From Gloeobacter morelensis MG652769 (GTDB lineage Bacteria; Cyanobacteriota; Cyanobacteriia; Gloeobacterales; Gloeobacteraceae), in the NCBI RefSeq assembly GCF_021018745.1, contig NZ_CP063845.1:4774001-4838000 (forward strand): a DNA stretch of 64,000 bases. The letters run 5' to 3'. Positions 2,403 to 26,984 of the stretch are shown here, one piece after another. A program made the translations under genes and the position numbers. Below the pieces are notes generated by a model. That model searched no databases, was not told the origin of the DNA, and saw only the letters and a program-made list of their open reading frames with translations. Position 1 is the first letter of the stretch. Every line of letters begins with the position of its first letter.

Positions 2403-4172
2403 ATGACCCGCCTCAGTTCGAGCTTTTTTTTCACCCTGCGCGAGGCGCCCGCCGAAGCGGTCGCCGTCAGCCACAAATTGCTGTTGCGCGCAGGATATAT
2501 CCGGCCCTTGGCAGGTACGGCGGGCCTGTACGCCTACGGGCCGCTCATGCAGCGCGTACTCCAAAAAGTCGGCCGCATCGTGCGCGAGGAGATGGATGCC
2601 ACGGGCGCCCAGGAGGCGCTGTTCTGTCAGTTGCAGCCGGCGGAAATCTGGAAGGAATCCGGGCGCTGGACCGTCTATACCCAGGACGGCACGATGTTTA
2701 CCCTCAAGGACGGCCAGGGCGAGCAGGCCCGCGAGTACGGCCTCGGCCCCACCCACGAAGAAGCTGTCTGCGACTTTGTGCGTGCGAGCCTCAATTCTTA
2801 CAAGCAGCTGCCCTTTCACCTCTATCAGGTGCAGACGAAGTTTCGCAACGAGAAGCGGCCCCGCTTCGGGTTGATGCGTGGGCGCGAATTCATCATGAAG
2901 GACGGCTACTCCTTCCATGCCACGCCCGAGAGCCTTGATGAAACCTACCGGGCGATGTATCGCGCCTATACGAATATGTTTCGCCGCTGCGGGCTCGATT
3001 TTCGGGCAGTGGAAGCCGACTCCGGGGCGATTGGCGGCTCCGGGTCGCACGAATTTATGGCGCTGTGCGACATCGGCGAAGATACGATCCTCTACTGCGA
3101 CGCGGCGGGCTACGCGGCCAACGTCGAGAAGGCCGTCTCCCTGGTGAGCGACCCGGAAGCGATCGGCTCCGGCAGCTACGCCGTCAAACCCACCCCCGGC
3201 ATCCGCACCGTCGAGCAGCAGGCGGCGATGCTCGGGGTGCCGATAAGCCGGATCGTCAAAAATATCGTCTACGTCGCCCTCTACGCCGAGGCCGATCCCC
3301 GTCCGGTGCTCGTCTCGATCCGCGGCGACCGGCACATCAACGAGACCAAGCTCAAAAACCGTCTCGACTGCCTGGACGTGCGCCTTGCCACCGAAGTGGA
3401 ACTGGCCGCCTGGGTAGGGGTAAAACCGGGATTTGTCGGCCCCGACGCGCCAATTGCCGGGGTGATTCGCCTGGCCGACCGCTCCGTGGACGGGCTGACC
3501 GATTTTTCCACCGGCTGCAACCAGGACGACGTGCAGTGCGTCTGGGCCAACTGGGGCGAGAACGGATTGGTTCTACCCGAGGTGACGGATCTCGACACCG
3601 CCCAGGCCGGGGATCGCTGCCATCTGGCACCGGAGGCGGCCCTGCAGAGTGCCCGGGGCGTCGAGTTGGGCCATATTTTTAAGCTCGGCGCCAAGTACTC
3701 GCGGCCGATGCAGGTACTCTTTGCCGATGAGGCGGGCGAACTGCAGCCGGCTCTGATGGGTTGCTACGGGGTCGGGGTCTCGCGGCTGCCCGCGGCGGTG
3801 GTCGAGCAGTCCCACGACAACGATGGGATCCTCTGGCCCATCGCCATCGCCCCCTACCAGCTCGTGCTGGTGCCGGCCAACGTCGCCGTCGAAGCGCAGC
3901 GCCAGGCCGCCGAGGAACTCTACCGGACCCTCAGCGCGGCGGGGATCGACACGCTGCTCGACGACCGGCCGGAGCGGGCCGGCGTCAAATTCAAAGACGC
4001 CGATCTTATCGGTATTCCCCTCCGGGTCACCCTCGGCCGCGACCTCGAAGCCGGTCTGGTGGAAATCAAAGTGCGCGGCGGCGGCGAGGCGCAAAAAGTG
4101 CCCTTAGCCGAAGCGCTTGCCCAAATCAAGGGGCTTATCGAGCGGTTGAACTCGGCCCAGCCCTCGCGCTAG
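2403..4172 (+). CDS. proS: Prolyl-tRNA synthetase, bacterial type with editing insertion
   Basis: 589 residues, the usual length for bacterial-type ProRS. It charges tRNA-Pro with proline for translation. Class II catalytic core: residues ~20-220 include 'GPTHEEAV', 'RNEKRPRFGLMRGREF' (motif 2 region) and later 'GCYGVGVSRLPAAVVEQ' (motif 3, residues ~450). Between motifs 2 and 3 lies the ~180-residue YbaK-like insertion (around residues 225-400, with 'KNIVYVAL', 'RGDRHINETKL', 'GFVGP') that hydrolyses mischarged Ala-tRNA-Pro. The anticodon-binding domain occupies the last ~110 residues ('DDRPERAGVKFKDADLIGIP'). ATG start close to the start of the conserved region. A tRNA-Pro gene lies 2.7 kb downstream. 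Confidence 0.97.
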   Translation: MTRLSSSFFFTLREAPAEAVAVSHKLLLRAGYIRPLAGTAGLYAYGPLMQRVLQKVGRIVREEMDATGAQEALFCQLQPAEIWKESGRWTVYTQDGTMFTLKDGQGEQAREYGLGPTHEEAVCDFVRASLNSYKQLPFHLYQVQTKFRNEKRPRFGLMRGREFIMKDGYSFHATPESLDETYRAMYRAYTNMFRRCGLDFRAVEADSGAIGGSGSHEFMALCDIGEDTILYCDAAGYAANVEKAVSLVSDPEAIGSGSYAVKPTPGIRTVEQQAAMLGVPISRIVKNIVYVALYAEADPRPVLVSIRGDRHINETKLKNRLDCLDVRLATEVELAAWVGVKPGFVGPDAPIAGVIRLADRSVDGLTDFSTGCNQDDVQCVWANWGENGLVLPEVTDLDTAQAGDRCHLAPEAALQSARGVELGHIFKLGAKYSRPMQVLFADEAGELQPALMGCYGVGVSRLPAAVVEQSHDNDGILWPIAIAPYQLVLVPANVAVEAQRQAAEELYRTLSAAGIDTLLDDRPERAGVKFKDADLIGIPLRVTLGRDLEAGLVEIKVRGGGEAQKVPLAEALAQIKGLIERLNSAQPSR

Positions 4173-4200
4173 CGTAAACGAGCCACCCGTCTGGAGCGCT

Positions 4201-4512
4201 GTGATGCTGGTACCTTCGTACTTTTTGATCCTGGGAGGGTTTCTCGCCGTGCTCACGGCGGGAGCAGCCCTGCAGGAGATGATCAAACAGGCCTGGCTGA
4301 GGGAGGAGAAGCTGAACTTTCCGGACTTGCTGGTGCCCTACCTGGCGATGTGCGCCGGGTTCATCGCCATGATGGCAAGCGGCCTGCAGATATTCGGCAT
4401 CCCGGCCGCCGGTGCCTATGGCTTTACAGTCCCATTTATTTTGGCTCTGGCCGGCTTTGTCTGGTGGCGGCTAACGGTGGAAATTAGCGGCGGGGGCGGC
4501 AGTTCCTGGTAG
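4201..4512 (+). CDS. Small integral membrane protein
   Basis: 103 residues starting GTG-ATG 29 nt after proS, same strand, so probably cotranscribed. Three hydrophobic stretches: residues ~3-23 ('SYFLILGGFLAVLTAG'), ~45-63 ('YLAMCAGFIAMMASGLQIF') and ~72-92 ('GFTVPFILALAGFVWW'), separated by a charged loop ('KQAWLREEKLNFP'). A hairpin-type inner membrane protein is expected. No motif allows a function; there is no obvious link to tRNA charging. Confidence 0.6.
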   Translation: MMLVPSYFLILGGFLAVLTAGAALQEMIKQAWLREEKLNFPDLLVPYLAMCAGFIAMMASGLQIFGIPAAGAYGFTVPFILALAGFVWWRLTVEISGGGGSSW

Positions 4513-4521
4513 CTGCCTTCT

Positions 4522-4767
4522 TCACTCTTCCGATGGTAGGGGCGGGTTGTCGAGCAGACTTTCTTTGGAAGATTTGAGCTTTTTCCAGAGGGAGCGAATC
4601 TCATCGTAGGCTTCGTCGGCGCTGATTTTGCCGCCCGTTTCGAGAGCACAGATAAGCGAGACGCGGTTGGCGAACTCCTGCAAATTGGAGTTGAAGATGA
4701 TGTTCCCCAGGGTCGCTTCACCCCGAAAAGACGCATGGGGGTCCAAGAACTCATCTTTGCTGGGCAT
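4522..4767 (-). CDS. Conserved cyanobacterial small protein (DUF7219-like)
   Basis: 81 residues. The pattern 'FLDPHASFRGEATLGNIIFNSNLQEFANRV' (split over residues 6-36) followed by 'ICALETGGKISADEAYDEI' and 'LWKKLKSS' matches a small acidic family that I recall from many cyanobacteria and that has no established role. It is convergent with the small membrane protein gene (9-bp gap). No catalytic motif, Cys pair or membrane segment is visible; likely soluble and helical. Confidence 0.65.
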   Translation of the reverse strand: MPSKDEFLDPHASFRGEATLGNIIFNSNLQEFANRVSLICALETGGKISADEAYDEIRSLWKKLKSSKESLLDNPPLPSEE

Positions 4768-4882
4768 GGGTTGCTTCCAGAGTGCCCCTCTAGAATATCC
4801 CCCGCGCTCCGCAGCGAAACATCCGCTTCAGCTTGGGGGAGGGAAGCTAAGATGAGAGCGGTGCAAACGACTTTATACTCTC

Positions 4883-5209
4883 GTGTATACCTACTTTAAG
4901 TGCGGCGATCTAAAATTTCGCACTCTCGAAGAAGCGCTTGCTTACTCGGTAGCCACCGGCGAAGACATCCAGGAGCTGACCTCCAAGGGCGACCCGTTTA
5001 TCGAGCGCCCGCCCCGGTCGAGCCGCCCGGTCTCCTGGATGCTGAGCGACACCTGGAACGCGCCTTCGGGATACCTGTCCACCCCCCAGGACAAACTGCG
5101 GGTGGTCGAGTTCGACCGCAACAATATTGGCAAAACCAAACTTCGACCCCAGCGCCCCCCCCGCCACCCACCCAGCGAAGGCAACAGTTCGCCGCCGCCG
5201 CCTAATTGA
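4883..5209 (+). CDS. Hypothetical protein with proline-rich tail
   Basis: 108 residues from a GTG start. The first ~85 residues are ordinary ('YFKCGDLKFRTLEEALAYSV', 'RVVEFDRNNIGKTK'); the end is disordered and proline-rich ('RPPRHPPSEGNSSPPPPN'). It runs 8 nt into the 3' end of the convergent DUF2808 gene. No recognised domain. The GTG start has no strong RBS, so the start is uncertain. Confidence 0.5.
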   Translation: MYTYFKCGDLKFRTLEEALAYSVATGEDIQELTSKGDPFIERPPRSSRPVSWMLSDTWNAPSGYLSTPQDKLRVVEFDRNNIGKTKLRPQRPPRHPPSEGNSSPPPPN

Positions 5210-5714
5210 ACGAGATAAACCAGCTGCCGGCGAAGCGGTAAAGCGGGTTGGGCTCGGTACCCAAGTAGCGCGCCAGGATTTTGTAGGTGCCGCCCGCCCG
5301 GGGATTGGTAAAGTTCTGCATTCGGATGCGCAGCGGTGTTTCTGCGGGGATGGGCTGCTTGAGGATGATCGTCATCACCCGCGCCTGGCTGTCGAGCTGG
5401 TCCTGCTCGATTTTTTCGACTTCGAAGGCCTGTTTGGTGAGGTCGTTGAGCACCTGGATATTGTTCAGATCGAAGCTGTTGTCGTAGGGGTGGGGATAGG
5501 TCAACTGCAACTCGGCAATCGCCACGTTCTGGGGCCTGAACATCAGGTCCAGCATATTGAAGCGCACCTTCGAGCGGTTGTTGATCATCGAGTAGCTGAG
5601 GTTGTAATTGGCGTCCCGCTCGCCGCCGAACAGCACGAAGCCGCCCTGGGCCAGAACCGGCGTCGCCTGGCATGCCAGGATAAGAGCAAACAAAGACCAC
5701 CACTTGCTTTGCAT
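5202..5714 (-). CDS. DUF2808 family secreted protein
   Basis: 170 residues starting at the internal ATG that follows a GGAG about 10 nt upstream (a GTG four codons earlier is the alternative). Residues 1-22 form a signal peptide ('WWSLFALILACQATPVLA'). The mature part has the features of the cyanobacterial DUF2808 family: 'YPHPYDNSFDLNNIQV', 'IPAETPLRIRMQNFTNPR' and 'GGTYKILARYLGTEPNPLYRF'. The family is an exported beta-rich domain of unknown role, common in cyanobacterial periplasm or envelope. It is divergent from the ketoacyl synthase gene with a 39-bp gap. Confidence 0.75.
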   Translation of the reverse strand: MQSKWWSLFALILACQATPVLAQGGFVLFGGERDANYNLSYSMINNRSKVRFNMLDLMFRPQNVAIAELQLTYPHPYDNSFDLNNIQVLNDLTKQAFEVEKIEQDQLDSQARVMTIILKQPIPAETPLRIRMQNFTNPRAGGTYKILARYLGTEPNPLYRFAGSWFISFN

Positions 5715-5753
5715 CGATCCGTCCACTCCGAACGTTTATTGACGTATTCTGGC

Positions 5754-6857
5754 ATGCTTGCTCTGGAACGGTCCGTGGTGATCACCGGTCTGGGGATCGT
5801 TTCCTGTCTGGGAGGTGAGGCGCGCACCACCTGGAAGCGACTGCTGGCGGGGGAACGCGGCTACGAACCTGGCGAGCCGGTCGGCCGCGCCGGGACTGTG
5901 CAGGCCGAGACGGGTCGGGTTGTGGCCTTGGTACAGCAGGCTGCCCGCGAAGCACTCGCCGATGCGGGCAGCCGTGAGGCGTTCGACTTTGGGGTCGCCA
6001 TCGGCTCCAGTCGTGGCCTGCAGGCAGATTGGGAAAACGGTCGCACCGGCCCCTTGATTGGCCTCGACGCCCCGGTGCATGCCGTGGCGGCCCTGGCAGG
6101 TACGCAAGGCCCCCTCGCGGCGCTCTCGTGCGCCTGCGCCTCGGGGGCCTGGGCGATCGGCACAGGCTACCGCTGGATCCGCTGGGGCCTGTGCGATCGG
6201 GTGCTCGTGGGCGCCGCCGACGCCGCCATCACCCCGCTCAACCTGGCGGGTTTTCGTCGGGCCGGTGCTCTGGCCCGCGACGCCTGTCTGCCCTTCGACC
6301 GGTGTCATAGCGGCTTTGTGCTCGCCGAGGGAGCAGCGGTACTCGTACTCGAAGCTGAAGAAGTCGCCCACGGACGGCCCTACACCCGCATCCGGGGTTT
6401 TTCCGCCACCTGCGACGCCTTTCACCCCACCGCCCCGCACCCCGAGGGCGAAGGGCTCGCCCGTGCCATCGAGCGCTGCAGGAAGCAAGCTCCGGGGCTG
6501 AGTGTCGGGGCTGTCCACGCCCACGGCACCGGCACGGCGGCGGGCGACCCTGTCGAAGCCGCCGTGATCGCCCGACTCTACGCTCCCGGTACACCGGTCA
6601 TCGCCTGCAAGGGGAGTCTCGGCCACAGCCTGGGAGCCAGCAGCGCCATCGAAGCGGCCCTCGCCTGCCTGGCGTTGCAAACTGGGCAGCTGCCCCCGAT
6701 CGCCGGGCTCACCGACCCGATCGCCCCGCTGGCCTTTGTACGCGAAGCATTCCGGACCTCCATGACCACCCTCATGCTCCACAGCCTCGGCTTCGGCGGC
6801 CAGAACACGGCACTCCTGCTGGAAGCTTGCCCTTCACCACGTCGCACGTTAGGCTAG
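5754..6857 (+). CDS. Beta-ketoacyl synthase-like condensing enzyme, short form
   Basis: 367 residues from the ATG at 5754, which directly precedes the KAS start pattern 'VVITGLGIVSCLGGE'. The nucleophile Cys sits in 'LSCACASGAWAIG', the two active-site His in 'HGTGTAAGDPVEA' and 'KGSLGHSLGASSAIEA', and the C-terminal 'SLGFGGQNTALLLE' is the usual KAS I/II end. The enzyme would condense malonyl-ACP with an acyl chain. It is ~45 residues shorter than FabF, the loss being in loops of the first half, and no ACP, KR or CLF gene is next to it. Either a divergent FabF paralogue or an enzyme of an unknown acyl pathway. Confidence 0.75.
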   Translation: MLALERSVVITGLGIVSCLGGEARTTWKRLLAGERGYEPGEPVGRAGTVQAETGRVVALVQQAAREALADAGSREAFDFGVAIGSSRGLQADWENGRTGPLIGLDAPVHAVAALAGTQGPLAALSCACASGAWAIGTGYRWIRWGLCDRVLVGAADAAITPLNLAGFRRAGALARDACLPFDRCHSGFVLAEGAAVLVLEAEEVAHGRPYTRIRGFSATCDAFHPTAPHPEGEGLARAIERCRKQAPGLSVGAVHAHGTGTAAGDPVEAAVIARLYAPGTPVIACKGSLGHSLGASSAIEAALACLALQTGQLPPIAGLTDPIAPLAFVREAFRTSMTTLMLHSLGFGGQNTALLLEACPSPRRTLG

Positions 6858-6871
6858 GAAAGCGAAAAGCC

Positions 6872-6945
6872 CGGGACGTAGCGCAGCTTGGTAGCGCACT
6901 ACTTTGGGGTAGTAGGGGTCGTGGGTTCAAATCCCGCCGTCCCGA
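6872..6945 (+). tRNA. tRNA-Pro (anticodon GGG)
   Basis: A complete cloverleaf can be drawn: acceptor CGGGACG pairing with CGTCCCG, D-stem GCGC/GCGC with the loop AGCTTGGTA, anticodon stem CTACT/AGTAG around the loop TTGGGGT, a 5-nt variable loop, T-stem GTGGG/CCCGC around TTCAAAT, and discriminator A at 6945. Anticodon GGG decodes CCC (and CCU) proline codons. CCA is not encoded (TTA follows). A terminator comes 7 nt later. Confidence 0.95.
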
Positions 6946-6952
6946 TTATTTA

Positions 6953-6979
6953 AAACCCGCAGCAACAGCGGGTTTTTTT
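6953..6979 (+). terminator. Intrinsic terminator of tRNA-Pro
   Basis: Perfect 8-bp stem AAACCCGC / GCGGGTTT around a 7-nt loop (AGCAACA), continued by a run of T up to 6978. Position right after the tRNA fits. Confidence 0.9.
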
Positions 6980-7581: not shown

Positions 7582-7875
7582 TTAGATGGGAAAACAGCAA
7601 GGGATAACGATGCATCGGACGTTGCCCCGGCGGTTGCGTTCTCGCAACACCGCACTCGCCCTGGAGCAGTCGCCCAACTGCACCGCAGCGCTTTGCACGG
7701 CTGTTAGCAGGTTTTGGTCGCTAAAGGCGCGCCGGATGCGTCCAGAACACGATTCGCCGTACAAAAGCCGGTGGGGGCAGGCAAAGCCTTTGTGGGCAGA
7801 CAGTCTTTGGCAATAAATATCGATCAGGCCGATGGCCAATCGGCGGGCAGAAACGTCCACAGCTGTGCTGATCAT
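7582..7875 (-). CDS. YidD-like membrane insertion efficiency factor
   Basis: 97 residues, RBS GGGAGA upstream of the ATG. The stretch 'IDIYCQRLSAHKGFACPHR' followed by 'LYGESCSGRIRRAFSDQ' resembles the long-form YidD family, in which an amphipathic helix is followed by 'YQ..LSP.KGF.C' and a conserved SCS. YidD proteins act at the inner membrane beside YidC in membrane protein insertion; this is family knowledge. The usual neighbours (rnpA, yidC) are not present, so the assignment rests only on the motif. Confidence 0.5.
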   Translation of the reverse strand: MISTAVDVSARRLAIGLIDIYCQRLSAHKGFACPHRLLYGESCSGRIRRAFSDQNLLTAVQSAAVQLGDCSRASAVLRERNRRGNVRCIVIPCCFPI

Positions 7876-20896: not shown

Positions 20897-21600
20897 TCAT
20901 TCCCTGACCACCAGCACGATCTTGCCGGTGGCGCGACCGGTTTCGCTGTAGGCGTGGGCGGCGGCGGCCTCCGGCAATGGCCAGGTGCGATCGACCACGA
21001 CCCGCAATTTGCCCTCCTCGAACCAGCGATTGAGAAATTCGAGCTCCCCGCCGTCCGCCCGGGCGGTGATCACCCCCGAGCGCTGCCCCGGCAGGAGATT
21101 GCCGAGCACCACCTTTGCCAGCACTTCCGGGGTGGGCAGGGTGGAAATATAGATGCCGTCGTCGGTGAGGATGTCCCGGCACCGGGAAGGGGAAGATTTG
21201 CCGACCGTGTCGAAGACGATTTCGTGGCGGACGGTGTCGGTACTCGGATCCTGCCGCTCGTAGTCGATCACCCGTTCGGCCCCCAGAGAACCCACCAGCT
21301 CGGCCTTGGAGCCGCTGCAGACCCCCGTCACCTGGGCCCCAAACTGCCGGGCGATCTGGACGGCAAAGGTGCCGACGCCCCCGGCCGCACCGATCACCAT
21401 CACCCGCATCCCCGCGCGGATGCGGCCGATGTCGCGCAATGCCTGCAGGGCGGTTTGTCCGGTCACCGGCACCGCGGCTGCCTCGATGTAGGAGAGGCTA
21501 TCCGGCTTGCGGGCGACGGCGGATTGGTCGACGGCGACCGATTCGGCGTAGGAGCCGCCGGGCGGCAAACCCAGATTGGCGTAAACTTCTCGACCGGGAT
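20897..21600 (-). pseudogene. Zinc-independent MDR oxidoreductase lacking its N-terminus
   Basis: About 230 codons of a quinone-oxidoreductase/MDR protein: 'GSYAESVAVDQSAVARKPDS', 'AAAVPVTGQTALQALRDIG', the Rossmann loop 'VMVIGAAGGVGTFAVQIARQ' (G-x-x-G-x-x-G), 'GAERVIDYERQDP', 'FDTVGKSS' and the C-terminal 'AHAYSETGRATGKIVLVV'. The first ~90 residues of the family (catalytic GroES-like domain start) are missing, because the frame runs into the iterated-motif repeat at 21586. The ATG at 21610 lies inside that repeat and is not an authentic start. It would have reduced quinones or enones with NADPH. Confidence 0.8.
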
Positions 21601-21684
21601 GAACTGCCACCGGGGATCACTGCAAACCAGGAATCAATGCAACCGGACCTGCAATCATCCGGTCGAGCCAGGATTAACTGCAAC
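21586..21684. repeat. Left copy of a ~95-bp inverted repeat built from iterated 16-bp motifs
   Basis: Starting with CTTCTCGACCGGGATGAACT, the segment contains successive units of the form CC(A/G)GGATnAACTGCAA at about 21594, 21609, 21627 and 21667, plus a degenerate unit between them. The reverse complement occurs at 24861-24954 with ~80 percent identity by eye. It truncates the MDR gene. Arrays of short iterated sites at both ends are typical of transposons whose transposase binds several sites per end (Mu, Tn7, IS21 types). Confidence 0.75.
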
Positions 21685-21710
21685 GGGAGGGTGCTGCCGT
21701 TCGTTCACCC

Positions 21711-22961
21711 CTACTTCCCCTGCGCCACATCCATGATCATCTGCGCCGCCAGGTAGAGCCGCCGCGGGATCGCATCGATCATCACATATTCATCGAAGGT
21801 CGTGTGATAGCCGAAGCCCGGTAGCCCGAGCCCTTCGACGACCGGCTTGCCCGACTTCGCCGCAAAGGCGGCATCGGTACCGCCGCCGGTGATCGGCGCG
21901 GTCACTAGCGTGTAGCCGAGGTCTTTGTAGATGCTGACCGCCTTGGCGATCAGTGCCTTGCCGCCGGCGTTCGCGGCGAACGCCGGCCGCCCGGCATCGG
22001 TGACCACCTCAATCTTGGCTTCGGGCAGCCGCTGCTTCTTCACCCGCGTGTCGAGGTCACGCACCATTGCCTCGTAGAGCGCGTTGGTCGGATAGCGCAC
22101 GTCGGCCTGCACCACCGCCTTGTCGGGAATGATGTTGCGGACGCCGCCTGCGTTCGCAACCGTCCAGTTAAAGCGCAGTCCGCCCGGCCCCTGGTCGAGA
22201 TCGAGCGTGCGCAACACCAGGTCGGAGGCTTCGACCTGCGCGTTGACGCCTTGCTCAGGCGCTGCACCGGCATGCGCCGAGCGGCCGGTGACCGTGGCGA
22301 CCACCGAGCCGACGCCCGAGGTGGCGAAGGTCATGCCCTCGGGCTTGATACTTGTGGGTTCGAACGACAACACCACGTCGCTCTCGCCGGCCAGCTTCTC
22401 GATTAGATCGCGCGAGCCGTTCGAGCCCTGCTCCTCGTCGCAGTTGAACAGCACTGTTAGCGTGCCAAATTTGCTGAAGCCGCGTGCCTTCAACAGCTTG
22501 AGGCTATGCAGGATCACCGCGATGCCCGATTTGTCGTCGGCGATGCCGGGACCATAGGCCTTGTCGCCTTCGATCCGGAACGGCGCGGTAGCGAGCTTGC
22601 CGCGAGTATAGACGGTATCCATGTGTGCCAACAGCAACACGTGCTTGCCTGCGCGGCCCTTCAAGCGCCCGACCACATTGTCGCCGACGACCTTGACGCC
22701 CTCGCGCTCCCCCACTGCCGCGCTGCGCTCGACCGTGAAGCCTAGCCCCTTCAGCTCGCCCTCGAGCAGTGTCACCATCTTGGCCAGCCCCGCCACGTCG
22801 CCGGTGCCCGACTCGATATTCACCAGCCGTTCGAGCGTGATGATCGTTGCCGACTGTTCGGCAGTGGCGGCGGTGAGCAACTCCTTGTCGATGGCCAGTG
22901 CAGGTTGCACAGCGAGCAAGATTAGCGTTGCTGTGGTGAGTAACCCCGATTGCTTGAACAT
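21711..22961 (-). CDS. Secreted M20 family glutamate carboxypeptidase (CPG2-like)
   Basis: 416 residues from the ATG at 22961 (GGGAG upstream). Signal peptide, residues 1-24 ('TTATLILLAVQPALA'). Zinc-peptidase motifs of M20: 'LLLAHMDTVYTRG' (His and Asp ligands), 'YGPGIADDKSGIAVIL' (bridging Asp), 'FNCDEEQGSNGSRDLIE' (catalytic Glu and ligand), 'LSFEPTS' (ligand), dimerisation domain with 'GRSAHAGAAPEQGVNA', and a final ligand His in 'FGYHTTFDEYV'. It hydrolyses C-terminal glutamate from folates or peptides. Lying between inverted repeats and next to an IS, with sequence reminiscent of alphaproteobacterial proteins, it looks imported. Confidence 0.9.
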   Translation of the reverse strand: MFKQSGLLTTATLILLAVQPALAIDKELLTAATAEQSATIITLERLVNIESGTGDVAGLAKMVTLLEGELKGLGFTVERSAAVGEREGVKVVGDNVVGRLKGRAGKHVLLLAHMDTVYTRGKLATAPFRIEGDKAYGPGIADDKSGIAVILHSLKLLKARGFSKFGTLTVLFNCDEEQGSNGSRDLIEKLAGESDVVLSFEPTSIKPEGMTFATSGVGSVVATVTGRSAHAGAAPEQGVNAQVEASDLVLRTLDLDQGPGGLRFNWTVANAGGVRNIIPDKAVVQADVRYPTNALYEAMVRDLDTRVKKQRLPEAKIEVVTDAGRPAFAANAGGKALIAKAVSIYKDLGYTLVTAPITGGGTDAAFAAKSGKPVVEGLGLPGFGYHTTFDEYVMIDAIPRRLYLAAQMIMDVAQGK

Positions 22962-23104
22962 GCCTGGATCTCCCTTGCCGGTGGTTCTCATTTTCATGGC
23001 TCGCGTCAGCCTAGCACCAACCCACCTGTAAGAGCCAAACGGCAGGAGCTTCCCGGGCAATCGGAGCGACATTGAGCCAGGATTATGTGACATACTCCCG
23101 ACAC

Positions 23105-24331
23105 TCATCCTGCGGATAGAGTGCGGGCTTCTCGCTTCATAGTCCAGCGAGTGCTTCGGACTCCACGAGCTTTAAAGACGGGATGACCCTCCGCCTTTTT
23201 CAACATGTTCCGACCTGAATTCTCATCCCTATGCAATTCCAAGCGGCAATCGGGGCAAGCATGCCATCTGTCGCTTAGAGTTTTGGGGACATGAGCATCG
23301 CAATCGGAACACATTTGCGTCGTACCAGATGGATTCACACCAATCGTTAAGCACCCAGCTTTTTCAGCTTTGTTTGCCAAGATTGTGATGAATGTTCCCC
23401 ATCCAGCATCCTGCACAGATTTGGCAAGACGAGTTCTCGCCAAACCTTTAATGTTTAAGTTCTCATGAGCAATAACCTCGTATTTTCGCAACAGTAAAAC
23501 TGCTGTCTTGTGATGAAACTCTTTCCTTTGCCTTGCTATCTTGGCGTGAAGCTTGGCAACTTTGCGAACCTGTTTAGCTCTACGTTTACTGGCTTTGTTC
23601 TTTTTATGCGCGAGCTTGCGCTGTTCTTTTGCCAATCGCTTTTGGGCTTTACGATAGTATTGGGGGATGGGAACATGTAGACCATCGCCAGTCACGAGAA
23701 AATCTTTTAAGCCGAGGTCAATCCCTACAGACTTCTCAATATCAATGTTGGGGTTAATGGTTGGAACAGACTCATCAACCAGGCTGAAAGTGATGTACCA
23801 GTCATCTGCTTTCTTACTGATAATGGCAGTTTTAACATCAAAACCTTCAGGCAATGGGCGATGTTGAATGAATTTGATAGTACCTAGTTTAGGCAAGCTT
23901 ACTTGGTTACCCACAATCCAATCATTCTCAGCTTGGGTATAAATGAAGGAGTGGTAGCGGCCTTTTCCTTTGAATCTAGGCTTCCCGCTACGCTTGCCAT
24001 TACTGTCACCCTTAAGATAACGGTCAAAGGCAAGCCCTACTCGCCTGACCATATCCTGAAGCACTTGCGAGTGCATCGCTTTGTACCAAGAACGTTCTTT
24101 CTTGAGTGCCACGAGAGAACGTTTCTGGTTGTAATAATTAGGCTGTTCTTTGGGTGGGGTGATACTTGAGACGAGTGGACAGGCATTAACTGGGCAGCGA
24201 TGAAGTTCCCACCAATCGAAGCGTTCGGCCAGTAGCCAGTTGTACTGAGAGCGCAGCATGTCTAGCCAGTGATTCAAGTTTTGCATCTGGGCGGCAGTGG
24301 GGCGCAATCGGTACTGGTAAGCCAATCTCAT
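23105..24331 (-). CDS. tnpB: IS605-type accessory protein, RNA-guided nuclease TnpB
   Basis: 408 residues. N-terminal helix-turn-helix-like part 'RLAYQYRLRPTAAQMQNLNH' ; 'GKPRFKGKGRYHSF'; RuvC-like motifs 'GIDLGLKDFLV' (first Asp), 'VIAHENLNIKGLAR' (Glu) and 'HRDENSGRNMLKKAE' (final Asp), with a four-Cys zinc finger between ('MCSDCDAH', 'HACPDC'). All catalytic residues are present, so it is likely active as an omega-RNA-guided endonuclease that retains the element after transposition. The guide RNA is expected to span the tnpB end and the right end around 23040-23200. Confidence 0.93.
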   Translation of the reverse strand: MRLAYQYRLRPTAAQMQNLNHWLDMLRSQYNWLLAERFDWWELHRCPVNACPLVSSITPPKEQPNYYNQKRSLVALKKERSWYKAMHSQVLQDMVRRVGLAFDRYLKGDSNGKRSGKPRFKGKGRYHSFIYTQAENDWIVGNQVSLPKLGTIKFIQHRPLPEGFDVKTAIISKKADDWYITFSLVDESVPTINPNIDIEKSVGIDLGLKDFLVTGDGLHVPIPQYYRKAQKRLAKEQRKLAHKKNKASKRRAKQVRKVAKLHAKIARQRKEFHHKTAVLLLRKYEVIAHENLNIKGLARTRLAKSVQDAGWGTFITILANKAEKAGCLTIGVNPSGTTQMCSDCDAHVPKTLSDRWHACPDCRLELHRDENSGRNMLKKAEGHPVFKARGVRSTRWTMKREARTLSAG

Positions 24332-24378
24332 TTCTGGATTATACCATCAACGTAGGTAGAAAATGCTACGCTGATTAT

Positions 24379-24789
24379 ATGAAAAACGATTTTATTTCTA
24401 GCGGTCGATGCGTGTCAGACATGAAAGCCCACTTGGTTCTCACTACAAAATATCGCCGTGGAGTGCTTTCAGGTGCAATACTTGCCCGGCCAGGTGAAAT
24501 CATGAGTGACTTATGTGAAAAGTGGGATTGTAAATTGATTGAGTTGAATGGCGAGGATAATCATGTCCATTTGCTTTTTCAATACTTGCCGCAGATGGAG
24601 TTGCCCAAGTTCATCGGCAATCTTAAATCCGTAACCAGTCGTAGGATTCGTACAGAATTTGCGGACGCTATCGAAAAGGTTTATTGGAAGAATGTGCTTT
24701 GGAATGAATCTTACTTCATTGCATCTTGTGGCGGAGTAACAGTTTCAATTCTTCGTAAATATATTGAAGGACAGGATGCACCTGATTAA
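24379..24789 (+). CDS. tnpA: IS200/IS605 Y1 transposase TnpA
   Basis: 136 residues. Y1-HUH enzyme features: N-terminal 'MKAHLVLTTKYRRGVLS', 'KLIELNGEDNHVHLLFQYLP' with the HVH metal motif, and 'VSILRKYIEGQ' whose Tyr is the single-strand DNA nucleophile. Also 'FIGNLKSVTSRRIRTEF' as in the family. It cuts and joins the ends of the element as single-stranded DNA. Complete and divergent from tnpB. Confidence 0.93.
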   Translation: MKNDFISSGRCVSDMKAHLVLTTKYRRGVLSGAILARPGEIMSDLCEKWDCKLIELNGEDNHVHLLFQYLPQMELPKFIGNLKSVTSRRIRTEFADAIEKVYWKNVLWNESYFIASCGGVTVSILRKYIEGQDAPD

Positions 24790-24860
24790 AATCCTTGCAG
24801 TCAAGGATGCGATTCATCCCGACACTGGGCTGCGCTACAGTGCGGGGCTTCTCGCATAGG

Positions 24861-24954
24861 AGCTAATTCTGGCCGAGACGGACGATTGCCGGTTCGGTTG
24901 CATTGATTCCTGGTTTGCAGTGATCCCCGATTGCAGTTCATCCCGGTCGAGAAG
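24861..24954. repeat. Right copy of the inverted iterated-motif repeat
   Basis: Reverse complement of 21586-21684: read on the minus strand it starts CTTCTCGACCGGGATGAACT and continues through GGGGATCACTGCAAA and CCAGGAATCAATGCAA. It is followed on the inner side by the tnpA end of the IS605-type element and on the outer side, 32 bp away, by the IS4-family element. The inner few units have diverged more than the outer ones. Confidence 0.75.
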
Positions 24955-25054
24955 CGCCTTATTGCAGGTTTGGGCCTCTACTATTGTTCAAGGGGTGACA
25001 GAGTAGCTCACAAACCGGACTGGACAAGCATTCCAGGCATCGCTACATAGGAAA

Positions 25055-25082
25055 ATGGACTTGGGATGTCGCCCAAGTCCAT
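25055..25082. promoter_or_regulatory. Perfect 11-bp hairpin at the 5' side of the IS4 transposase gene
   Basis: ATGGACTTGGG and CCCAAGTCCAT flank a 6-nt loop. The hairpin contains the first in-frame ATG, so transcripts coming from outside the IS would hide that start. IS10 and IS50 use such hairpins to block translation from read-through RNA; the same role here is inference. Confidence 0.6.
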
Positions 25083-25093
25083 CCAAAAAAACA

Positions 25094-26245
25094 ATGATGC
25101 CTGCATTCTACCAGACCTTCTTCGCACACCTGCTCACTGCGCGACAGTCTCTGTTTTTGCATTTGCTTGTCGCCACTTTGCAAACCCACAAACAGCTCGC
25201 CTTGGGCAAACTCTCCCAGGCACTGCCGCTGCCGATCACTGCCGACAGTCGCAAGCGCGCTCTCCAACGCTTTCTCACCCTCGACAAACTCAATATTTTC
25301 GAGGCTTGGTTCCCATTGGTTTTGTACCTGGTACTGACCCACTTTTCCAAGACAACCACACTCAAACTGGCGATCGACCGCACCGACTGGTGGCACTACA
25401 ACGTGCTGACAGTGGCCCTGGTGTGGCATAGACATGCCTTGCCACTCAATTGGACCTTGCTCGACCATCCTGGCAACAGTAACCTCGAAGACCAACAACT
25501 GTTACTCTCACCGGTTCTGTCTCTACTTTCTGCCTATCGCGTCGTGGTGTTGGGGGACAGAGAGTTTTGCAGTGTCAAGCTGGCCAATTGGTTGCGCAGT
25601 CGAAAGGCCGGCTTTTGCTTGAGATTAAAAATCAGTGAATATATTCGACAACAAGGTGCAGACTTTCGCTCGCTAAAGTCTTTGGAACTACAACCTGGAA
25701 TGTCGATGTTTCTTGGCGGAGTGCGCGTCACCAAAAATCGTAAAAACAAGGGATTCGAGCCGTTCAATATTGCTTGTATCTGGAAACGAAAAATCCGGAA
25801 TATGCAACCGGGTGAAGGCTGGTATATTTTGACAGACCGGCCAAAGTTACACGAAGCACTTGAGCTGTATGCTGACCGTTGGGGAATCGAAGTTTGGCAC
25901 AAAGACGTCAAATCCTGTGGCTACCATCTTGAAGAAGTACGCGTCAGTCAGGAACGGATGATGCGGGTACTGTTGTTAGCATCGATTGCCTGGAGTGCAG
26001 CGATGCTCAACGGTCTGCAACTGGAGCGAATAGGGGTGGACAAGTACACCGGCAGGGTTCAAGAAAAGCAGCGACGCTTGCGGCGTCACAGCCCTTTTCG
26101 GGTTGGCCAGTACGCTTGGCACTGGGCACAGGCGGTGCTGGGTTTGGGTGACTGGCTCGACAATTTGATAGACACCTGTAGGAACAAAGCCCGGGACTAT
26201 CGACGCGGGTTGCGGGCTGCAAGGTTGATGCTGAGCGTCACGTAG
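25094..26245 (+). CDS. IS4 family DDE transposase
   Basis: 383 residues from ATG 25094, just after the 5' hairpin (an in-frame ATG at 25055 lies inside the hairpin). DDE catalytic residues: Asp in 'LAIDRTDWWHYN', Asp in 'VVLGDREFCSVKLA', Glu in the IS4 signature 'YADRWGIEVWHKDVKSCGYH' (Y-2-R-3-E-6-K). No stops, full length, ending 21 nt before the right terminal repeat. It mobilises this element by cut-and-paste transposition. Confidence 0.93.
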   Translation: MMPAFYQTFFAHLLTARQSLFLHLLVATLQTHKQLALGKLSQALPLPITADSRKRALQRFLTLDKLNIFEAWFPLVLYLVLTHFSKTTTLKLAIDRTDWWHYNVLTVALVWHRHALPLNWTLLDHPGNSNLEDQQLLLSPVLSLLSAYRVVVLGDREFCSVKLANWLRSRKAGFCLRLKISEYIRQQGADFRSLKSLELQPGMSMFLGGVRVTKNRKNKGFEPFNIACIWKRKIRNMQPGEGWYILTDRPKLHEALELYADRWGIEVWHKDVKSCGYHLEEVRVSQERMMRVLLLASIAWSAAMLNGLQLERIGVDKYTGRVQEKQRRLRRHSPFRVGQYAWHWAQAVLGLGDWLDNLIDTCRNKARDYRRGLRAARLMLSVT

Positions 26246-26288
26246 CCTTGTCTGTCACCCCTTGAACTACTATTGCAAGCTCTTACAG

Positions 26289-26984
26289 CTATATCTCTCC
26301 CTGGAAGGCAATTTCCGCCAATCTTTGCCTGAACCTGGTTCTTGTCTGCAGCTCGGCGAGGTTGTAGCACTCGATGCGCTGCACTTGTGCCAGGGCGAGG
26401 ATGGTTCTCGCGGAGCCCTGGATCTTGCCGTCGCCGTCTTCGGGTACGAAGCAGATCACATAAGCGCTCGGGCTGTCGAGATCTTCCCCGAGCAGCTGAA
26501 ACACCCGCCGGGTGTGCGCCCGCCTCTGAAAATTGTTGTAGCTTTTCCAGTGGGGGTGAACCGAGGCCGCCAGCCGTGTCGCCCTGGCGATCGTCTCGGG
26601 GTCGCAGACCACCAGCCCGTCTTGATAGCCCCCGGCCCCGGAGTGGGGCACATAGATTCGGCGGCTCTCCGCCGCTGCGGCCGTGGCAAAGGCGGCGTCC
26701 GTTCCCTTGTCGTGCCCGGTGCGCACAACCATACCCTGGCCCGCCAGGTGCTGCGCCACCAGAATCACCAACGCAGCGACGTCGGGCGGCGGCTCGGTCG
26801 AGCCGACGCCTGTGTAAAAGCGATTGACAGTGAGCAGGTTCACCGCCTGGTGCTGCTTGCCGGCGGTCATGGCTGTCCGGTCATCGACATCCTGGTCTGC
26901 GCATAAGTGGTGCTCGACCCGGGCGTCGCTGTCGGCGGAGTCTGCATCGCTACTATTTCCCTCGTTCCGGCGTACCTCGGTCAT
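26289..26984 (-). CDS. SLOG/DprA-like Rossmann protein of phage type
   Basis: 231 residues from the ATG at 26984 (GAGG close upstream). The first ~45 residues are acidic and disordered. The core begins with 'RFYTGVGSTEPPPDVAALVI', then 'GMVVRTGHDKGTDAAFATAA', 'RIYVPHSG' and later 'AYVICFVPEDGDGKIQGSAR', 'ARTILALAQVQRIECYNLAE'. G-x-G-S-T and G-x-x-x-G-T-D-x-A-F are features of the SLOG superfamily found in many phages, where they bind nucleotide-derived ligands or DNA. Its end lies 14 bp from the IS4 target duplication. Possibly a prophage leftover; exact role unknown. Confidence 0.6.
   Translation of the reverse strand: MTEVRRNEGNSSDADSADSDARVEHHLCADQDVDDRTAMTAGKQHQAVNLLTVNRFYTGVGSTEPPPDVAALVILVAQHLAGQGMVVRTGHDKGTDAAFATAAAAESRRIYVPHSGAGGYQDGLVVCDPETIARATRLAASVHPHWKSYNNFQRRAHTRRVFQLLGEDLDSPSAYVICFVPEDGDGKIQGSARTILALAQVQRIECYNLAELQTRTRFRQRLAEIAFQGEI

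Follow-up and report, generated by a model that had tools for sequence, protein, structure and literature searches.

A probable decayed non-autonomous transposon in Gloeobacter morelensis with the ends of a three-gene resolvase/IS481-like transposase/ATPase family

Insertion of Tn5053/Tn402 elements generates a 5-bp target duplication. In these and other Tn7-like elements, multi-site ends are combined with a transposase, an AAA ATPase and a site-specific resolvase that replaces the donor-cutting nuclease (PMC11406308; PMC9527255), and in type V-K CAST the repeats are bound by TnsB (PMC9527255). TGT/ACA ends are common to Tn7-like and IS481 elements (PMC11406308). Within IS481, duplications of six bases are the most frequent (PMC10045372); the target of TnRErm46, a cargo transposon driven by IS481, is NCTAGN (PMC6794481). 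Elements that encode a recombinase family protein, a transposase labelled DDE-type or 'IS481 family' and an AAA family ATPase appear in the annotation of plasmids from cyanobacteria, Pseudomonas and other sources, but no published name or description of this three-gene family was found in the open-access literature searched. These elements have the same working set as Tn5053/Tn402 and other Tn7-like transposons, and resemble the IS481 family and TnRErm46 in their TGT/ACA termini, 6-bp TA-centred target and carriage of cargo (PMC6794481; PMC10045372). Unlike IS481, they have long ends built of many motifs, their transposase is longer and extended at the C terminus, and its partners are an AAA ATPase and a resolvase.

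The DNA analysed here (the window) is a stretch of 64,000 nucleotides from the genome of G. morelensis MG652769 (NZ_CP063845.1, positions 4,774,001 to 4,838,000). The window contains a 104-nt inverted pair (arms 21586-21689 and 24851-24954, 85% identity), which bore out a preliminary description of inverted ends of ~95 bp placed ~3.2 kb apart. Besides the query, a search of the whole genome with the left end returned the right end at 89% identity (E 4.6e-28) and a single weaker third place (C1:4567782); no second inverted pair of this kind, 85-89% identical, was present in G. morelensis. With up to three mismatches, CCRGGATNAACTGCAA matched the window 14 times (3.2 expected), a count reached by 0 of 100 shuffles, and 6 of these 14 matches lay inside the two ends. 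Of the 16-bp iteration previously reported, the repetition held; the simple tandem arrangement did not, as two spaced motif types were found instead. The cargo was as described, with an M20 peptidase gene and an IS200/IS605 TnpA-TnpB pair between the arms (Table 1). The absence of a transposase suited to multi-site ends was likewise confirmed, since all three family genes are missing from the element. We interpret the locus as, very probably, a decayed non-autonomous transposon with ends of the three-gene family. Like the cyanobacterial three-gene elements, it has ends of similar kind, a TGTA terminus and the same repeat layout; it differs from them in the loss of all three genes, the carriage of an M20 gene and damage to both ends. 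The element is a degenerate member of an already known kind, and what is unusual is the widespread three-gene family.

Table 1. Features of the transposon locus and its surroundings (window coordinates; IS, insertion sequence).
Feature	Position	Strand	Basis or remark
Truncated zinc-type oxidoreductase, left flank	20897..21610	-	ADH_zinc_N domains; N-terminal part missing relative to relatives
Left transposon end	21586..21689	+	Inverted repeat with right end; similarity to G001 and G003 ends
M20 glutamate carboxypeptidase gene, passenger	21711..23108	-	PRK06133 model, Pfam
IS200/IS605-type IS in inner edge of right end	23087..24867	.	TnpB 23105-24331 (-), TnpA 24379-24789 (+); domains
Right transposon end, main part	24868..24986	-	87% to left end (aligned part); cores at family positions
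9-bp duplication CTACTATTG of IS4-type IS, copy 1	24978..24986	.	Belongs to right end
IS4-type IS	24987..26266	+	Transposase 25055-26245, DDE_Tnp_1; edges from ~20 near-identical complete copies in genome
9-bp duplication CTACTATTG of IS4-type IS, copy 2	26267..26275	.	
Right end, outermost 12 nt	26276..26287	-	TGTAAGAGCTTG read from outside
Adjoining hexamer GCTATA	26288..26293	.	Fits NNTANN target; partner at left absent

The right end had initially been delimited at 24954. It extends instead to 26287 and is split by the IS4-type IS, which sits between motif cores one and two of this end. Of the arm as first drawn, the inner ~17 nt (24851-24867) belong to the IS605-type copy. This copy disrupts the right end at its innermost box, and its edges were set by a 99% identical second copy in this genome and by copies in another genome of the genus (G003). 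When the IS4-type IS was skipped, the right end continued to a canonical terminus (TGTAAGAGCTTGCAATAG). The joined end scored 38.9 on a profile built from 34 ends of other elements (real ends, 30-64), and the same profile gave nothing above 0 on the raw window. Its motif cores, at 11, 33, 64 and 97 nt from a TGTA terminus, matched the family spacing; by the same test, the inner part alone was present at the left end. An end split in this way by another IS conceals an element from annotation. A TGTCAC motif had made position 25000 a candidate right terminus, which was rejected because the motif is the IS4-type element's own end. That its complete copies in the genome are near-identical points to a recent expansion of this IS.

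At the left, the outer ~46 nt of the end are missing: the match to the family begins at about position 47 and runs inward, with motif cores up to a box at 21668-21683. Because the outer terminus is gone, the left boundary was set by end similarity. The host part of the oxidoreductase stops at ~21585 and the start of its ORF falls inside the transposon end. The claim that this gene is cut at the left end was upheld, as a frame without the N-terminal part adjoins it. The outer nucleotides were probably lost through a deletion that also took the front of the oxidoreductase gene. Since neither end has survived intact, a target duplication outside them, as envisaged in the preliminary description, could not be demonstrated: the right hexamer fits, and the left terminus is lost. 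A clean empty site was not found either. Homology to G001, another genome of the genus, starts at 26295, 8 nt beyond the right terminus, and continues for 3.7 kb (88%), and the left flank differs in that genome.

The M20 peptidase scored 454.9 bits against the glutamate carboxypeptidase model PRK06133 (cut-off 349), and its gene likely starts at 22961 (MFKQSG..., signal-like). The gene was absent from the other three genomes of the genus. Its closest relative among the 39 genomes searched showed 41% identity, and the closest on plasmids, in Cupriavidus, 56.5%. The composition of the gene is host-like, a point against the transposon reading, and it is this distribution that argues for its acquisition. 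Summing the pieces, the element would have measured about 1.7 kb before the later insertions and the loss at the left, with the M20 gene as sole cargo. Immediately before the IS605-type copy, positions 23074-23086 (GAGCCAGGATTAT) form a motif-like box in + orientation that has a 12-mer in common with the left end.

In a search of 30 relatives, the ends were recovered in the same genus only. Apart from the weaker third place in G. morelensis, the further copies were found in same-genus genomes, including around a transposase. The genome G003 (4,724,791 bp) contains a 3.7-kb element with 169-bp ends (99% inverted). It encodes a DDE transposase of 554 aa, an AAA ATPase of 332 aa and a serine resolvase, the last with a PF00239 match of 162 bits. 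Another two ends in this genome, 4.19 kb apart (L022:6972-11159), enclose TauE/SafE, YnfA/UPF0060, MerR-type and Na/Ca-exchanger genes and no transposase, a cargo suggestive of a response to ions or metals. This second element sets a direct precedent: a passenger element of the family in the same genome as its autonomous relative. The same ends flank a transposition module and, separately, transposase-free cargo, which supports the proposal of a non-autonomous transposon with a passenger gene for the window. By their ends alone, orphan passenger elements of Gloeobacter-type cyanobacteria can be connected with a transposon family that is widespread and ATPase-dependent.

These genomes also bear on two other readings of the locus. 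The two ends might be remnants of different copies, for instance of two autonomous or short end-pair elements, between which the M20 gene was trapped by chance. Solo and truncated ends do exist in the genus, G001 has two inverted ends ~490 bp apart with more insertion DNA beyond, and the left end in the window is without its outer terminus. However, the two arms are 87-89% alike and at most 74% similar to any other end found (local alignment), they are turned towards each other with a plausible spacing, and the passenger arrangement in G003 is intact, which makes such a chance assembly improbable. That the repeats are an intergenic family unrelated to transposition is more improbable by far: solo fragments occur at orthologous places in three genomes, but the ends are not merely scattered single repeats. 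They are found in inverted pairs that enclose cargo or transposition genes, their termini are sharp, and the target duplications in practice refute this reading. In G001, a 2-kb insertion that starts with such an end interrupts a locus continuous in the genomes G000 and G002 (ATCTAGGG in G000). Its flanks, CGTAGG and CCTAGG, would fit a TCTAGG-like target; as an IS5-like element now occupies the right side, the example is not a clean one.

Relatives of the transposase were detected in 820 plasmid records and at 66 genome-contig loci, many of them cyanobacterial. Both termini were located for 24 elements, on which the following terminus and target statistics are based. The located elements start with TGTA. 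A perfect 6-bp target duplication flanked 8 of the 24 (none among mismatched left-right pairings), and of the 48 tabulated flanks, 45 had TA at the centre of the hexamer; L087, whose boundary is one base off, accounts for two of the three exceptions. Of six Gloeobacter-type copies elsewhere, four had an imperfect duplication, which counts against the reading proposed for the window. In Nostocales HT-58-2, six copies of one element were each found at a different site. Copies of the Gloeobacter type and those of filamentous cyanobacteria have TGCA cores at similar distances from the terminus (~11, 33, 65, 98, 110-119, 131 and 160 nt), and a CCAGGATTA-type box precedes most of the inner cores. 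Such a layout is that of a putative transposase-binding array. The end consensus and the target rule can be used to find more hidden cargo elements.

In two members of the family the gene set is altered. Scytonematopsis (L088:3565-5551) has two tyrosine recombinase genes in place of the serine resolvase, alongside the same transposase and ATPase. In Cuspidothrix (L116:10325-11500), the ATPase gene is split by another transposase gene; the element has a perfect 6-bp duplication.

The ends had been likened to those of IS21, Mu or Tn7. Their character as multi-site transposon ends was retained, and the protein models favoured IS481 over IS21. The G003 transposase stayed below every Pfam cut-off. 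Among the NCBIfam models it matched IS481 best, at 75.5 bits well below the curated cut-off of 224 and yet ahead of IS21 (34.1 bits, cut-off 160); the IstB model did not appear among the ATPase matches shown. Mu-type Pfam matches were weak. Searches of solved structures gave no significant match for the transposase, and its AlphaFold model had a mean pLDDT of 61.5 and a poor catalytic region. The TGT/ACA ends and the 6-bp TA-centred duplication of the autonomous relative agree with those of the IS481 kind (PMC10045372; PMC6794481; PMC11406308).

Several of these properties would also fit ends of the Tn7/Tn5053 (TniA-TniB-TniQ) kind, namely the multi-site ends, the TGT termini, the set of transposase, AAA ATPase and resolvase, and the weak rve and Mu-transpos_C_2 Pfam matches of most family members. 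We nevertheless regard this assignment as unlikely. No TniQ-like ORF was found in the autonomous elements, whose ORFs of useful length are the resolvase, transposase and ATPase; a small or divergent one may exist. For their ATPase, the matches were AAA_22 and a model of a PEP-CTERM ATPase, and no TniB model was among them. In addition, the ends are long and symmetric, the duplication is of 6 bp, centred on TA, rather than the 5 bp of Tn5053/Tn402, and IS481 is the best transposase model. With IS481-type affinity as the preferred reading, the three-gene family, with a transposase of about 550 aa, iterated symmetric ends of 130-250 bp and NNTANN targets, could tentatively be viewed as an undescribed ATPase-regulated IS481-type branch that runs parallel to Tn7, Tn5053 and IS21 and spawns passenger elements, a proposal we consider possible rather than probable.

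By analogy to ATPase-regulated DDE transposons such as type V-K CAST, another copy would supply a transposase and an ATPase to bind the motif arrays and pair both ends. The 3' ends of the TGT...ACA termini would then be joined to a 6-bp NNTANN target that the ATPase licenses, and strand transfer would leave the 6-bp duplications. If the process is replicative, a cointegrate would remain and be resolved by the resolvase. No homologous transposase of the three-gene type was found in the G. morelensis genome, so the window element was probably moved in trans. The IS605-type and IS4-type ISs landed in the right end later. With that transposase missing from the genome, the left terminus gone and the right end cut twice, the copy in the window is most likely immobile.

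Two further observations concern remnants of such ends in the genus. G001 (L041, ~4293), G002 (L042, ~3876) and G000 (L043, ~4189) share a conserved 42-bp fragment of an outer end together with its flank (CACTATTTTAGT); it may be an ancient solo remnant, or may have been kept for some reason. In G000, one end (L023, ~7779-7859) looks as though two ends had been fused that are separated by 2.7 kb in G001 (L040, ~4158-6966), and the outer flank is the same; a deletion via recombination between the iterated motifs is a possible origin.
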